44,822 nucleotides of DNA from SAR86 cluster bacterium (GTDB lineage: Bacteria; Pseudomonadota; Gammaproteobacteria; Magnimaribacterales; Magnimaribacteraceae), in the NCBI GenBank assembly GCA_022447025.1, contig JAKUUL010000006.1, forward strand, positions 1-44,822, in the 5' to 3' direction. Each line of letters begins with the position of its first letter. Position 1 is the first letter of the stretch. Under the pieces are notes generated by a model, which was not told the DNA's origin, made no database searches, and saw only the letters and a list, made by a program, of their open reading frames with translations. Both the position numbers and the translations under genes were made by a program. Shown here piece by piece: positions 33,846-40,738 of the stretch.

Positions 33846-34313
33846 TTACAATACTTTTACTACTGCTCTTCTATTTTTAGACCAAGAAGATTCATTGGAA
33901 CTGTAAGCAACAGGCCTTTCTTCTCCATAACTAACTGTTGTGATACTACTAGAAGGAACCCCGTTGACTTGAAGTAATTCAGAAACGACGTTAGCTCTTC
34001 TTTCGCCTAAAGCTAAATTATATTCCCTTGTACCTCTTTCATCGCAATGCCCTTCTATTCTTACCTTACTCGAACTAGATTTTATAGATTTAGCAAGCTC
34101 ACGAATTTCTGATATAGCAGAAGAACTTAGATTATATTTATCGTAATCAAAGTATATTGTACCTCCTACTGGGCTATCAGAATCTGAGTATCCAGGTTCT
34201 GCAACAGCAGAAACAGTTTCAACTTCCACGGCTCGATCCATTGAAATTGCAGCACATCCACTAAAAGAACATATTATGGCTGCCAAGACTAAAAATTGAT
34301 CAAATAAACTCAT
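33846..34313 (-). CDS. pal: Peptidoglycan-associated lipoprotein Pal
   Basis: 155 residues. The signal peptide ends in FSGC (lipidated Cys20). The C-terminal OmpA-like domain contains IYFDYDKYNLSS and the peptidoglycan-binding segment EGHCDERGTREYNLALGERR. Pal tethers the outer membrane to the wall and binds TolB. AGGAG lies before the ATG. A 75-base gap to tolB with AT-rich DNA may hold a separate promoter, but none is clear. Confidence 0.96.
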   Translation of the reverse strand: MSLFDQFLVLAAIICSFSGCAAISMDRAVEVETVSAVAEPGYSDSDSPVGGTIYFDYDKYNLSSSAISEIRELAKSIKSSSSKVRIEGHCDERGTREYNLALGERRANVVSELLQVNGVPSSSITTVSYGEERPVAYSSNESSWSKNRRAVVKVL

Positions 34314-34388: not shown

Positions 34389-35687
34389 TTAGTTGCCTGT
34401 GGAAACCAACAAAGGGGACCAACTTGGCTCCCTCACACCTCCTGAATTCGTCGGTAGAATAAATCTTGTTTTTCCATCTATAGATATTCCTGCAAGAATA
34501 TCTTTTTCTTTATCTTTAGTGGCATAAATGATTACTTTTCCGTTGGGAGAAATAGTGGGAGATTCATCAAGAGTAGTATCCGTTAAAATTTGTAACTTAC
34601 CCGTTCTAAGATTTTGAACAGCAATATGAAACAATCCATCTCTTCTGTGTACAAATACAAAGCTCTTTCCATCAGGAGTATATCTAGCTCTAGCGTTGTA
34701 GGTTCCTTCAAAAGTTTTTCTTCTAATCTTCTTATTGGTAACATTCATTTCATAAATTTGTGGGGATCCACTTCTATTTGAAGTAAAAATTATTTTTCTT
34801 CCATCTGGTGACCAATCTGGTTCTGTATCAATTCCAAAATGGTCTGTTAGCTGCTTCCATTTATCATTTTCTAAGTCATATCTAAAAATATCTGGATTGC
34901 CTTCTTTAGAAAGAACAGCTGCTAAATACTTATCTGAAGGAGACCAATTTGGAGAGCTATTAATGCCTCGTTCAAGTTTTAATCCTTTTCTTTTCCCTGT
35001 ATAAATTTCTTGGATAAATATTCTTGAAGTACCTTCTTCAAAGGAAACATAAGCCAAACGCTTTCCATCAGATGACCAGCTAGGTGACATCAAAGGCTCG
35101 CTAGAAGAGAAAATACTAGAGTCATTTCTTCCATCTATATCGGTAACTCTCAGGAAGTATTTTTGTTCAGGTTCCCTATTTTGGTTTATATATGATATTT
35201 TTGTAGAAGATATACCTGGTAAACCATTGATTTCATTGTATATTCTATCACTTATAATATGAGCAAGAGCATTTAAATAAGAAGCAGATCCGACACTAAT
35301 TGATCTTTTCATTAATCTTTCTCTAGTAACATTAAAGAGTGAGAAATTCACTACGATTTCTTGCAGACTTTCTCCTCTCGAAGCTGTTCCTAAAACTAGA
35401 TAGTCAACATCTAAGAGCTTCCAATCTCGGTAAAATATTTCTTGTTCAGAATTAGGCAAACTTAACATTTCTTTTGGGGATAAAGATACAAATTCACCAA
35501 ATGACTCAAGATCAGAAGAAATAATTTGATGCAGGTATTCTCTTGGTGGATTTTCAAGATTCCATGCTATAGGAACAATTGCTATCCGAATTGGATCTTC
35601 TATCCCCTTAGTAATTTCAATTCTCAGATCAGAGGATAAAAAAGAACTATAAATAATAAATAAAGATGTCAAAATCCTTAAGATCAT
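34389..35687 (-). CDS. tolB: Tol-Pal system beta-propeller protein TolB
   Basis: 432 residues. A short hydrophobic start (ILRILTSLFIIYSSFLSS) is probably a signal peptide. An N-terminal alpha/beta domain (RIAIVPIAW) follows, then a WD40-like propeller of repeats of the type PSWSSDGKRLAYVS, PNWSPSDKYLAAV and PDWSPDGRKIIFTS. TolB connects TolA to Pal in the periplasm. It follows tolA by four bases. Confidence 0.96.
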   Translation of the reverse strand: MILRILTSLFIIYSSFLSSDLRIEITKGIEDPIRIAIVPIAWNLENPPREYLHQIISSDLESFGEFVSLSPKEMLSLPNSEQEIFYRDWKLLDVDYLVLGTASRGESLQEIVVNFSLFNVTRERLMKRSISVGSASYLNALAHIISDRIYNEINGLPGISSTKISYINQNREPEQKYFLRVTDIDGRNDSSIFSSSEPLMSPSWSSDGKRLAYVSFEEGTSRIFIQEIYTGKRKGLKLERGINSSPNWSPSDKYLAAVLSKEGNPDIFRYDLENDKWKQLTDHFGIDTEPDWSPDGRKIIFTSNRSGSPQIYEMNVTNKKIRRKTFEGTYNARARYTPDGKSFVFVHRRDGLFHIAVQNLRTGKLQILTDTTLDESPTISPNGKVIIYATKDKEKDILAGISIDGKTRFILPTNSGGVREPSWSPLLVSTGN

Positions 35688-35691
35688 AGGT

Positions 35692-36303
35692 CTAATTATC
35701 GGGATTAAATACTAGAGTAAACTTTCTAAAATGGTTATCAAATAATTTTCTTCCCATATCTAAATTTTCGAATTTAGAGACTTTCTGAACTGCATTTAAA
35801 GCAGAGTTATCAAAAGCCTGGTTACCGCTGGATTTAGTTAGATTAACTTGAATAATTTCTCCAGTAGGAACGAGTGTTATAAGTATTTCCACTGTCATTC
35901 CCTTTTGCGCTGAACTTGGTTGTTTCCAATTCCTTATTACTTGATCTCTGATAAGATTTGAAAAAAAAGAGATTTCTTCAACAGAACTTTTTGTCTCATT
36001 ATTTATAATCTCTTTTAGCAATAAATCCTTTTCTACTTTTATATTTTCTAACTCAGCTCTTGTATCCGCTGTCTCTATAATTGGAGAAGCTATTACTGGT
36101 TCTTCATAAATCTGCTTTTTGACCATCTTATTATTAGTTATCTTTTTAAGGACTTGTGGTTTTTCAAATACAAGATAAGCAGGCATAGGCTCAATTTTAT
36201 TTAGCGAATAAAGATTATCAATTTGAAAGAAATTAGCAAAAGATAAAACTAACCCCATATGAAGAACAAAAGAAACTAGAAAACCAGAGAAATAGTTTTG
36301 CAC
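35692..36303 (-). CDS. tolA: Short TolA-like energy-transducing protein
   Basis: 203 residues, about half the length of E. coli TolA (421). One N-terminal membrane helix (FLVSFVLHMGLVLSFANFF) is followed by a short charged spacer (about residues 45-110) instead of the long helical domain II. The C-terminal TonB_C-type domain has FFSNLIRDQVIRNWKQPSS and LVPTGEIIQVNLTKSSG. TolA carries proton-motive force from TolQR to TolB-Pal. Position between tolR and tolB is the best support for the name; TonB-like is the alternative. Confidence 0.86.
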   Translation of the reverse strand: MQNYFSGFLVSFVLHMGLVLSFANFFQIDNLYSLNKIEPMPAYLVFEKPQVLKKITNNKMVKKQIYEEPVIASPIIETADTRAELENIKVEKDLLLKEIINNETKSSVEEISFFSNLIRDQVIRNWKQPSSAQKGMTVEILITLVPTGEIIQVNLTKSSGNQAFDNSALNAVQKVSKFENLDMGRKLFDNHFRKFTLVFNPDN

Positions 36304-36306
36304 AGT

Positions 36307-36732
36307 CTAAGAGGATGGCGGTTGAGTGATTAAACCTACATCTTCAGCACCTGAAGCTTGAAGAACTGACATTAACTCCATTACTTTCTGATATTTGACT
36401 CCCCCATCTCCTCTTACTACTACTTGCAAAGAAGGGTTTGCTTTAAGAATCTTCTCTACCTGTATAGAAATCTCGTCTAGACCAAGAGGAATATTCTTAG
36501 TAGCTTGGGTTTCAAGAAAAAATGTACCTTCAGATTTTATAGAAATAATTAATGGGTCATTTTTTTCTCTTGGAAGAGGTTCAGAAAGAGTCTCAGGGAG
36601 ATTTACTAGAACGCCTTGAACCATTAAAGGAGCTGCTATCATAAAAACCACTAGCAGCACTAACATTACATCAATATAGGGAACCACATTTATCTCTGAA
36701 AGTAGTGTCCTTCTTCGTCTTCTTGAAGTCAT
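36307..36732 (-). CDS. tolR: Tol-Pal proton channel subunit TolR
   Basis: 141 residues. The single helix contains the functional aspartate in NVVPYIDVMLVLLVVFM, preceded by the basic RRRRR-type N-terminus. The periplasmic domain ends in VMELMSVLQASGAEDVGLI. ExbD/TolR proteins form the proton channel with ExbB/TolQ. The ATG overlaps the tolQ stop (ATGA). Confidence 0.96.
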   Translation of the reverse strand: MTSRRRRRTLLSEINVVPYIDVMLVLLVVFMIAAPLMVQGVLVNLPETLSEPLPREKNDPLIISIKSEGTFFLETQATKNIPLGLDEISIQVEKILKANPSLQVVVRGDGGVKYQKVMELMSVLQASGAEDVGLITQPPSS

Positions 36733-37397
36733 TTCTTGTAAAGGTCTCTATGAAGAACAATAGAGAATTCATCCATGAAATCTTCGAAACTTGAGAGAAG
36801 GCTTTCAACAGAAGTCGTATATCGGTTGTATGCAATTAAAGCTGGTATGGCTGCAAATAAACCTATGGCTGTAGCTATCAAAGCTTCAGAGATGCCTGGT
36901 GCTACTGTAGACAATGTAGCTTGATTTGTTTCTGCCAAGCCCCGGAAAGAATTCATTATGCCCCAGACAGTTCCAAATAAACCTACATAAGGAGATGCTG
37001 AAGCTACTGTGGCTAAAAAGGGTAAGTGTTTTTCCAAGGTTGTCTGCTCCCTAGAAAGAGATATCCTCATAGCCCTTTCAGCGCCCTCTAAAACAGTTTC
37101 AGGTTCTAGGTCCTGGCTTTTAATATTTTTGTATTCTTGATAACCAGATCTAAAAATGCGCTCAGCTCCAATGGAAACATGGTTCTCATCTTCTCCTTGA
37201 TCAAAAACAGCTTCTAAACCTGCATCAGACCAGAACAAGTCTTCAAATCTAACCAGTTCCTCTTTAGATTTATTTAAAAATATCCATCTTTCAAAAATTA
37301 CCATCCAGGAGAATATAGAAGCTAATAAGAGCAAAAAGATAACCAGCTGAACTACTAAGCTAGCATTGATAAAAAGATCGATGACTGAATATGACAT
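36729..37397 (-). CDS. tolQ: Tol-Pal proton channel subunit TolQ
   Basis: 222 residues with three membrane segments, near residues 10-35, 130-152 and 165-190. The MotA/TolQ/ExbB domain shows LPFLATVASASPYVGLFGTV, WGIMNSFRGLAE and PGISEALIATAIGLFAAIP, the ion-channel region. It forms the pentameric core around TolR. It follows ybgC by five bases and overlaps tolR by four. Confidence 0.97.
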   Translation of the reverse strand: MSYSVIDLFINASLVVQLVIFLLLLASIFSWMVIFERWIFLNKSKEELVRFEDLFWSDAGLEAVFDQGEDENHVSIGAERIFRSGYQEYKNIKSQDLEPETVLEGAERAMRISLSREQTTLEKHLPFLATVASASPYVGLFGTVWGIMNSFRGLAETNQATLSTVAPGISEALIATAIGLFAAIPALIAYNRYTTSVESLLSSFEDFMDEFSIVLHRDLYKK

Positions 37398-37402
37398 AAT
37401 TT

Positions 37403-37801
37403 CTATAGCAATGATTTCATACCTTGATATAACTTACTAGGGAGAGCTTTGGGCTTAAAGTCTTTCAAAGCAAGACAGCCACATTTAATAACTCCTCCAC
37501 ACAATAAATTGCCTTCCTTGGTGAGAGCTTCTTGATTGAAGTCAAAACTGACCTTTCCGGCTTTAATTATTTGAGTATGAACTTCAATTTGCTGGTCTAG
37601 GCTGGCAGGTTTTTTAAATTCAACAGAAACTTCTCTAACAACAAAAATTGCACCTTTTTCCATTAGTTCTTTCTGCTTATAACCTATCTCTCTTAGAAAC
37701 TCTGTTCTAGCTCTCTCAAAAAATTTTAAATAGTTTGCGTAGTAGACCACTCCTTGCGCATCTGTATCTTCATAGTAAATCTTAATGGGTAATATATGCA
37801 T
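37403..37801 (-). CDS. ybgC: Acyl-CoA thioesterase YbgC (Tol-Pal associated)
   Basis: 132 residues, a single hot-dog fold. The family motif IYYEDTDAQGVVYYANYLKF carries the catalytic aspartate, followed by FFERARTEFLREIG. E. coli YbgC hydrolyses short or medium acyl-CoA and interacts with phospholipid enzymes. It is the first gene of the tol cluster, starting two bases after the PD-(D/E)XK nuclease gene. Confidence 0.95.
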   Translation of the reverse strand: MHILPIKIYYEDTDAQGVVYYANYLKFFERARTEFLREIGYKQKELMEKGAIFVVREVSVEFKKPASLDQQIEVHTQIIKAGKVSFDFNQEALTKEGNLLCGGVIKCGCLALKDFKPKALPSKLYQGMKSLL

Positions 37802-37803
37802 CT

Positions 37804-38214
37804 TTATAAATCATGGTTTTCTATATCTTCCTTATAAAGATTCTTTAGAAGAAAGATAAAATCTTCCCAAAGTAAATCTGCGGTATACGGAGCATTAATA
37901 TTTAATTCAGAATTAATTGCCCCAAGGGGAACTCTCACCTTTATAGGCCTCCTATCAAACTTATATACCAGAGCCGGGATGCCTTGTTCACTGGTAGCAT
38001 CAAGCACTTGCTGCCACCACGCTTCCAGAGGCTCTGCACCCGAACCATACCTTTTACACTCTATGTACCATCTTCCTAACATTAAATCTGGGAGGTGTTT
38101 CTCTCTAGTCTGTTCTAAAATCCTTCTGATATTATTTTTTAGACCAAGGTCCTCGGTCAATAGGTTCCCTATTTCTCTTTCAAATGAAGCGCCTTTATTT
38201 CTTGAATTTGTCAT
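37804..38214 (-). CDS. PD-(D/E)XK nuclease, Hjc/phage-resolvase-like
   Basis: 136 residues. The opening NKGASFEREIGNLL has the KGxxxERE pattern of Holliday junction resolvase Hjc and phage PD-(D/E)XK nucleases. The likely metal site is Glu12, Asp43 (LPDLMLGRWYIECKRYG), Glu52 and Lys54. A Trp-rich stretch (EAWWQQV) follows, as in phage-type members. It lies in the place that holds ruvC-ruvA-ruvB in many gammaproteobacteria, two bases from ybgC and two from yebC. A structural substitute for RuvC is therefore possible. Restriction-type or other DNA nuclease roles are alternatives. Function is inferred only. Confidence 0.75.
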   Translation of the reverse strand: MTNSRNKGASFEREIGNLLTEDLGLKNNIRRILEQTREKHLPDLMLGRWYIECKRYGSGAEPLEAWWQQVLDATSEQGIPALVYKFDRRPIKVRVPLGAINSELNINAPYTADLLWEDFIFLLKNLYKEDIENHDL

Positions 38215-38216
38215 TT

Positions 38217-38963
38217 CTAATTTAGATGTTCAATAATCTCTTCAGGAAAATCAGCGTTGGAATGAACATTTTGAGTGTCGTCAAGATCTTCTAGAGCTTC
38301 TAAAAGTTTATAAATTTTTAACGAAGTTTCTAGATCAGTTGAAACACTTGTCTCTGGTATTAAACTAATTTCTGATTCTATTATCTCAATTTCTCCTTCT
38401 ATCAGTGCTTTTTTAACTGCTTCAAAGTCTTCAGGCAAGGTAGAGATAGTCATCGAATTATCTAAATTTTCTTCTATATCTTCAGCTCCAGCTTCTATTG
38501 TAATTTCCATCACTTGTTCAAAATCTGAATTATTACTTATCTGTATTAATCCTTTTTTAATAAATAGATAGGAAACTGAGCCATCAGTGCCTAAGTTTCC
38601 ACCAGCTTTAGTAAAAGCGTGTCTAACCTCAGCTACAGTTCTATTATTATTATCTGTCATTGATTCAACAATAACTGCAACACCACCAGGACCATATCCT
38701 TCATAAGTAGTTTCTTCTAAATCCTCCCCATCAGCTGAACCAGATCCCCTTTTAATAGCTCTTTCAATGGTATCCTTTGGCATATTGGCAGTTAAAGCTT
38801 TATCAAGGGCTGTTCTTAATCTGGGGTTATCTTCTGGAGTAGGCCCTCCTAGCTTCGAAGCAACAGTCAATTCTCTTATTAAGCGCGAAAATATTTTTCC
38901 TCTTTTAGCATCTTGTCTGCCTTTTCGATGCTTTATATTTGCCCATTTTGAATGCCCAGCCAT
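38217..38963 (-). CDS. yebC: YebC/PmpR family transcriptional/translational regulator
   Basis: 248 residues. The N-terminal domain AGHSKWANIKHRKGRQDAKR, with LIRELTVASKLGG and MPKDTIERAIKRG, is the YebC signature. GPGGVAVIVESMTDNNNRTV follows. Long annotated as a DNA-binding regulator, the family has recently been linked to translation of proline-rich sequences. It lies two bases after aspS and directly before the nuclease gene. Confidence 0.96.
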   Translation of the reverse strand: MAGHSKWANIKHRKGRQDAKRGKIFSRLIRELTVASKLGGPTPEDNPRLRTALDKALTANMPKDTIERAIKRGSGSADGEDLEETTYEGYGPGGVAVIVESMTDNNNRTVAEVRHAFTKAGGNLGTDGSVSYLFIKKGLIQISNNSDFEQVMEITIEAGAEDIEENLDNSMTISTLPEDFEAVKKALIEGEIEIIESEISLIPETSVSTDLETSLKIYKLLEALEDLDDTQNVHSNADFPEEIIEHLN

Positions 38964-38965
38964 AA

Positions 38966-40738
38966 CTAGTCATCCTCATCAACAACAATCTTTAATTCTT
39001 CTAGTTGTTCTAAAGAAGCTTGACCTGGTGCGTCAGTCAATAAACATGAAGCTGTTTGGGTTTTTGGGAAAGCTATTACATCTCTTATAGATTCAGAGGA
39101 GGTCAAAAGCATAATTAAACGGTCATAACCTATAGCCAATCCAGCATGAGGAGGACATCCGTGTTGTAAGGCAGATAGTAAAAATCCAAACTTTTCTTCA
39201 CTCTCTTTTTTGTCTATTCCCAATACTTGTAACACCGAGGACAGCATTTCATGATCATGAATACGAACCGACCCACCTCCTAGCTCTAGGCCATTAAGAA
39301 CAACATCGTATGCATTAGATAAACAGTTAAGAGGATCAGTTTTAAGTTCCTCTTCTGTACATTTAGGAGATGTAAAAGGATGATGAAGAGGTGTAATTTC
39401 TCCACTTGCATTAAGTTCGAACATAGGAAAATCTGTTATCCAGCAAGGAGCCCAATCTTTATTTAATAAATTTAAGTCTTTTCCTAACTCAACCCTCAAT
39501 GCAGCTAAAGAGTCATTAACTATTTTTTTAGGACCAGCTCCAAAAAAAATAATATCTCCTTTCGTTGCTCCTACCTGTTTTAGTAATACTTTTACAATAT
39601 CATCTTCTAAAAATTTGATAATAGGTGATTGCAAACCCTCTTTGCCTTTCTTAGGATCTTCTACTCTTATGTAAGCTAACCCTTTAGCACCAAAGTTTGA
39701 TACAAAATCTGTGTAGTCATCTATCTGTTTCCTTGTTAATTCTTCCCCTCCAGGAACTCTCATACATGCAATTCTTGCATCTTGAGAATTTGCTGGTTCC
39801 TTAAAGACTTTAAATTCTGTATTTATAAATAATTCTGAAACATCTTCTAAAATAAGTGGGTTCCTTAAATCTGGTTTATCGGTACCAAATTTTGCTATTG
39901 CTTCCGCGTATGTCATCTCAGGAAACTTACCTAACTTAACTCCTAAAATCTGTGAGAAAACCTCCTTCAATAATTCAGTAACTAAATCTTTAATGTTTTG
40001 TGAAGTAACAAATGAACACTCCAGGTCTATTTGAGTAAATTCAGGTTGTCTGTCTGCACGGAGATCTTCATCTCTAAAGCATCTAGCAAATTGATAATAT
40101 CTTTGGAAACCTGAAGCCATTAATGTCTGTTTAAATAGTTGAGGAGACTGAGGAAGCGCAAAGAATGAACCTGGATAAGTTCTGCTAGGTACTAAATAAT
40201 CTCTTGCTCCTTCTGGAGTTGCTTTTGTAAGCAATGGAGTTTCAATTTCAATAAATTCATTGGCTTCAAGATAATCTCTAACGCATTTAGAAGTTTTTGA
40301 TCTTAATCTAAGATTCTTCTGCATTTCTTCTCTTCTCAAATCTAAGAATCTATACCTAAGTCTCGTCTCTTCCCCTACTGAAGCGTATTCATCTAGTTGG
40401 AAAGGTGTAGGTAACGAAGAATTTAAAATTTCTAATGAAGAACCTACTACCTCTATTTCTCCTGTATCCATCTCAGGATTGACTGTACCATCAGGTCTTT
40501 CTCTCACTTTTCCTTCTACAGAAATTACATACTCATTCCTACAAGACTCTGCTAGAGCAAAACTATCCTCGTCATCTGGGTTATAAACTACTTGCACTAC
40601 ACCAGATTCATCTCTCAAATCGAAGAAAATAACTCCTCCATGATCTCTCCTTCTATGAATCCAACCGCAAAGCTTAATAACAGAACCAACTTCTTTTTTG
40701 GTTAAAGATCCACAGCTAATATTTTCTAAATTTTTCAT
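38966..40738 (-). CDS. aspS: Aspartyl-tRNA synthetase
   Basis: 590 residues, bacterial-type AspRS. The N-terminal OB fold anticodon domain ([20 protein letters not shown]) is followed by the class II core with [20 protein letters not shown] (motif 2) and [15 protein letters not shown] (motif 3). The GAD insertion domain lies between. It charges tRNA-Asp. It follows the FmdB-like gene by 10 bases and precedes yebC, a common gammaproteobacterial order. Confidence 0.97.

Follow-up and report, generated by a model that had tools for sequence, protein, structure and literature searches.

A contig from a SAR86 cluster bacterium, a member of a free-living and very abundant ocean lineage, carries a single small nuclease gene at a place where ruvC, ruvA and ruvB would be expected. 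A preliminary description of this DNA proposed that the gene could be a replacement of RuvC, acquired from a phage and fixed at the original locus. The window, by which we mean the whole stretch of DNA analysed (44,822 nucleotides, contig JAKUUL010000006.1 of assembly GCA_022447025.1), comes from a bin of 1.23 Mb in 123 contigs, estimated as 74% complete with 2.8% contamination. The gene and its neighbours are arranged as follows:

38966–40738, minus strand: aspS, aspartyl-tRNA synthetase, conserved upstream flank (named from sequence; order-wide synteny)
38217–38963, minus strand: yebC (TACO1/YebC/PmpR), upstream flank, the ruvC neighbour in most gammaproteobacteria (curated models)
37804–38214, minus strand: Hjc-like PD-(D/E)XK nuclease (PF24608 / phrog_244), predicted Holliday-junction resolvase, 136 aa, catalytic residues E12, D43, E52 and K54
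37403–37801, minus strand: ybgC, tol-pal-associated acyl-CoA thioesterase, downstream flank (TIGR02799 above cut-off; curated models)
36729–37397, minus strand: tolQ (PF01618; synteny)
36307–36732, minus strand: tolR (named from sequence and position; synteny)
35692–36303, minus strand: tolA (named from sequence and position; synteny)
34389–35687, minus strand: tolB (named from sequence and position; synteny)
33846–34313, minus strand: pal (named from sequence and position; synteny)

The reading frames bear out exactly the picture of one 136-residue gene squeezed between yebC and ybgC, as it begins with ATG and lies precisely 2 bases from each neighbour. Within the window, the nuclease locus contains no further phage genes and no methyltransferase partner, and a promoter scan of the operon returned fewer sites than shuffled sequences did and so carries no information. 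The protein contains the motifs KGASFERE, LPD and ECK, so that the PD-(D/E)XK elements noted earlier (KG-xxx-ERE, PD and ExK) are indeed present as E12, P42-D43 and E52-C53-K54, numbered with Met as residue 1. The four putative active-site residues, E12, D43, E52 and K54, are invariant across the aligned SAR86 and phage rows.

Pfam places the protein in PF24608 (PDDEXK_15, "phage putative endonuclease") with 38.3 bits against a cut-off of 27 (E 1.6e-9), and PHROGs matches it to phrog_244 at 51 bits (E 4.2e-13). The latter carries the label 'RusA-like Holliday junction resolvase', which we set aside as annotation only, because the RusA profile PF05866 does not match the protein. The RuvC profile PF02075 likewise gave no match in Pfam, neither the Hjc model PF01870 nor the RecU profile PF03838 was reported at E values up to 1, and no NCBIfam or PADLOC model matched. 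A chance reading frame can be ruled out by the family matches, by conservation throughout the order and by purifying selection.

In other gammaproteobacteria, yebC adjoins ruvC in 25 of 30 RuvC loci, and 20 longer loci show the order (aspS)-yebC-ruvC-ruvA, with ybgC and/or tolQ downstream in 16 of them, in agreement with the synteny claimed at the outset. The full ancestral order would then be aspS-yebC-ruvC-ruvA-(ruvB)-ybgC-tolQRAB-pal, where the position of ruvB follows established knowledge. STRING neighbours of RuvABC, which include YebC, YbgC and the Tol proteins (PMC3403352), agree with this slot. The SAR86 nuclease therefore occupies the exact former place of ruvCAB, one gene for three, and fixation at the original locus is supported by the aspS-yebC-nuclease-ybgC-tol order in SAR86 set against ruvCA in the same slot elsewhere.

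This arrangement is not a peculiarity of one genome. Of 199 genomes in the order, 177 were found to carry the nuclease, in single copy; these cover all 22 genera and all 4 families (here f1 to f4) and include 38 of 40 near-complete genomes, the other two giving no match. A contig of SAR86 cluster bacterium REDSEA-S09_B4 encodes a protein 100% identical to it, and SAR86 is also the source of most of the 80 genome loci nearest to it. Genomes sampled from three families preserve the arrangement aspS-yebC-nuclease-ybgC-tolQ-tolR-tolA-tolB-pal, and in the genome examined from the fourth (f4; G004, locus L201, 6902–7926), ybgC has been lost and the nuclease directly abuts tolQ, with the rest of the order kept. 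Across the order, the nuclease has the highest mean identity of the gene cluster (64.5%, compared with 60.5% for YebC, 57.1% for AspS, 48.6% for TolQ and 43.4% for YbgC), and it is under strong purifying selection, with dN of about 0.03–0.16 and synonymous sites near saturation. Given its order-wide conservation and low dN, the nuclease is an old, selected core gene; the replacement put forward for this DNA is supported, but it is order-wide and old instead of being confined to the present genome.

Two local departures were seen in f3 genomes. In one of them (G129, locus L109, 4998–8574), two extra genes lie between the nuclease and ybgC, which by eye encode a 551-aa thiamine-diphosphate-enzyme-like and a 478-aa aldehyde-dehydrogenase-like protein. 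An f1-type nuclease is carried by this genome and by a second f3 genome (G108, loci L049/L110); the genes at L049 and L109 suggest one exchange within the order.

Next, we searched for the genes that the nuclease might have displaced. RuvC (PF02075) was found in 0 of 199 order genomes, the window's own bin included, with positive controls detected; in a class-wide sample, which takes in a few SAR86 genomes, 343 of 369 have it. Among near-complete genomes, the two are mutually exclusive, with the nuclease in 38/40 and no RuvC in the order, against RuvC in 298/313 in the class sample. RuvB was absent above the TIGR00635 equivalog cut-off of 299 bits in all 39 genomes searched. Matches to RuvB_N (E 1e-3 to 1e-9) occur in 198 of 199 genomes, which we do not accept as RuvB given best TIGR00635 scores below 30 bits; the best TIGR00635 matches are reading frames of about 420, 530–550, 640 and 750–810 aa, which, judged by length alone, are other AAA+ proteins such as RarA, DnaX, FtsH and Lon/Clp. 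RuvA was found in none of 40 near-complete genomes, and RusA (PF05866) in none of 39 order genomes. The sole above-cut-off RuvA match among the 199 comes from the window's own bin, on a contig of 3.25 kb (C98 of G000; locus L200, 2547–3146), where an intact ruvA and an RND efflux gene converge and neither ruvB nor ruvC is present. This contig is probably a contaminant, since ruvA is absent from every sister genome, although this is not proved.

A ruvCAB set elsewhere in the genome would have refuted the replacement, and apart from this lone ruvA, nothing of the kind was found. The proposal that RuvC was replaced is therefore supported, with RuvC missing and the nuclease in its slot, but not its restriction to RuvC: the replacement is wider, because RuvA and RuvB are gone as well.

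The same genome search addressed RecG, which is kept at full length in most tested f1, f3 and f4 genomes, as well as within part of f2. For 14 near-complete genomes of f2 (genera g8, g11, g14 and g15; for example G002, G006, G014 and G018), the best RecG match is a reading frame of about 1000–1100 aa, with one fragment. By its length, this is presumably Mfd, and RecG therefore seems to have been lost in these four genera, so that the obvious branch-migration partner is not universal in SAR86.

The AlphaFold2 model of the nuclease, built from an 18-row alignment, has a pLDDT of 88.9 and a pTM of 0.85. Foldseek against the PDB ranked Archaeoglobus Hjc first (E 4e-3, probability 0.99), with the restriction endonuclease 3ndh among the lower matches, and viral structures matching the model include proteins annotated as Holliday junction resolvases. 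In the VIA comparison, the best ten rows were all archaeal Hjc/Hje (Z from 10.4 down to 7.6, aligned over roughly 100 of the 135 residues), followed below by Cas4-like and SPARDA nucleases at Z of about 7.5 and RecU entries at about 6. A match to a nuclease family of unrelated specificity would have spoken against the proposed role; the nearest structures are instead Hjc/Hje resolvases.

Sequence comparison is consistent with this fold. Searching PDB sequences with the single protein or its profile returned only chance matches. Against a small alignment of solved Hjc/Hje sequences (with entry 1gef as the check on the P. furiosus Hjc sequence), profile-profile comparison gave an E value of 9e-8, compared with a best E of 0.03 among 100 column-shuffled controls, and it brought the KG-xxx-ERE, D and ExK elements into register. 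In this alignment, E12, D43, E52 and K54 correspond to Hjc E9, D33, E46 and K48, and the motif likeness to Hjc that had been noticed by inspection is thereby substantiated. The SAR86 protein resembles archaeal Hjc/Hje (PF01870; 1gef, 2wcw and 1ob8) in predicted fold, in size, in the KG-xxx-ERE motif I and in the PD and ExK elements, but shares just 16–28% identity with them and, unlike them, is encoded by a bacterial/phage gene, here in a yebC-tol operon. As the Pfam Hjc model does not detect it, we do not call it a PF01870 member; we file it under PF24608 and infer from these similarities that it may work like an Hjc.

The relatives of the nuclease outside SAR86 are largely viral. The SAR86 protein is a direct member of the PF24608/phrog_244 phage family. 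Many marine viral contigs carry homologues 38–56% identical to it, and a few Pseudomonas and Roseobacter phages carry relatives as well. Genes near the nuclease at 59 distinct viral loci include those for DNA polymerase A (PolA), primase-helicase, SSB (phrog_378), thymidylate synthase, Sak4-like and Sak-like annealing proteins, and YqaJ and RecB-type exonucleases. The phage homologues sit in replication/recombination modules, in contrast to the SAR86 clade, whose members are single-copy chromosomal genes at one fixed place. Among cellular genomes, the family is rare: outside SAR86 it occurs in 3 of 365 genomes of the class sample, each of which also has RuvC, and in 6 of 298 Pseudomonadota genomes of a phylum sample. 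Several of the inspected non-SAR86 loci look like prophage.

In a tree whose root is arbitrary and which contains several long branches, the SAR86 rows form one clade (96/97) beside otherwise phage rows, with one viral contig, L202, placed inside it near f2. Together with the phage genomic context, this clade upholds the suggested acquisition from a phage. The viral contigs L202 and L203 carry, at about 6.0–6.4 kb and 3.8–4.2 kb, respectively, a nuclease 56% identical along its full length, L203 giving the same match as L202; it is possible that both are SAR86 phages that captured the host gene. The simplest reading would be that the SAR86 ancestor acquired the gene once from a phage, that a phage later captured the host copy and that one exchange took place within the order.

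Our preferred explanation, to which we assign a probability of roughly 0.8, is that a phage-derived, Hjc-like Holliday-junction resolvase replaced ruvCAB in situ in the order's common ancestor and acts today as the resolvase of the SAR86 chromosome. The locus, its conservation, the absence of RuvABC and RusA, the fold, the active site, the phage ancestry and the phage context were computed here; dimerisation, junction cleavage and the role in vivo are inferred, and we found no biochemical or genetic data on PF24608 or on the SAR86 nuclease. In the mechanism that we envisage, a homodimer of the nuclease would bind the four-way junction, E12, D43 and E52 of each subunit would hold Mg2+ while K54 positions the phosphate, and the two subunits would nick opposing strands symmetrically. 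Branch migration could be driven by RecG where it is present and, in the RecG-less genera, may be spontaneous or depend on another helicase. Phage resolvases act without RuvAB, and this independence would explain the loss of RuvA and RuvB together with RuvC. We lean, with little more than even confidence, towards the broader statement that the whole order exchanged RuvABC in full, with its branch-migration motor, for a single phage Hjc-like nuclease at the original locus, and that in four genera this nuclease works without either RuvAB or RecG.

The PD-(D/E)XK fold is common to nucleases of many specificities, which counts against the resolvase explanation. The nuclease could accordingly be specific for another branched substrate (flaps, replication forks or D-loops), with junctions left to RecG, to RecQ/topoisomerase-type dissolution or to YqgF and no dedicated resolvase in the cell; such a division of labour would fit the retention of RecG in most SAR86 genomes, as well as the structural similarity to Cas4-like and SPARDA nucleases. 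We consider this improbable, though still worth bearing in mind, as the gene is kept even in RecG-less genomes and lies exactly in the ruvCAB slot, and as Hjc/Hje are its closest structures.

Much less plausible is a defence or restriction-type nuclease that came to rest in the former ruv locus by chance. Nucleases of this fold are common in defence systems and 3ndh appears among the Foldseek matches, but PADLOC models do not recognise the protein, there is no methyltransferase partner at the locus, and the gene is single copy, present in nearly every genome of a small-genome order and better conserved than its neighbours. That the gene is merely left over from a recent prophage, or arose through faulty binning, and has no role is hardly credible: its nearest non-SAR86 relatives are phage genes and the rare matches in other Pseudomonadota lie in phage-like regions, yet it is fixed at one locus across four families and 22 genera, under strong purifying selection and without other phage genes around it, and this order-wide synteny refutes such an origin.

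Compared with known systems, the Hjc-like resolvase proposed here shares the genomic slot and the inferred role of RuvC (PF02075) without any sequence match to it, and RuvC has a different, RNase H-like fold. Of the proteins tested biochemically, Hjc_15-6 of Thermus phage Tth15-6 is the closest precedent: a phage-borne, archaeal-like Hjc that cleaves Holliday junctions and X-shaped DNA and has an E-SD-EVK set (PMC8805305). Its E-D-ExK active site is like that of the SAR86 nuclease (E-PD-ECK), a likeness that concerns signatures only, without direct sequence comparison; Hjc_15-6 is phage-encoded, whereas the SAR86 nuclease is a fixed chromosomal gene. RecU of Firmicutes and Mollicutes is likewise a PD-(D/E)XK resolvase that replaced RuvC across a whole bacterial lineage, although it is structurally further from the SAR86 protein. 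RecU acts together with RuvAB, which was retained, and is encoded far from ruvAB (PMC3403352), whereas SAR86 lost RuvA and RuvB and has the new gene in the old locus.

Less than 2% of sequenced bacteria are reported to lack RuvA and RuvB, and most of these are small-genome parasites (PMC3403352). Searching the open literature, with subscription papers outside the search, for SAR86 together with Holliday junction, ruvC or RuvABC loss, we found no report of a replacement. SAR86 appears to have lost all three ruv genes and to rely on one phage-type nuclease. If true, cells would here clearly have handed a core step of DNA recombination to an enzyme from a phage, and in the genera without RecG, the Holliday junctions of a free-living bacterium would be resolved by a resolvase acting alone, without either of the two well-known branch-migration enzymes. 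It becomes testable whether one small resolvase can do the work of RuvABC and whether RecG is needed, and a candidate function emerges for PF24608, a family that is common in phages and whose name says no more than putative nuclease.
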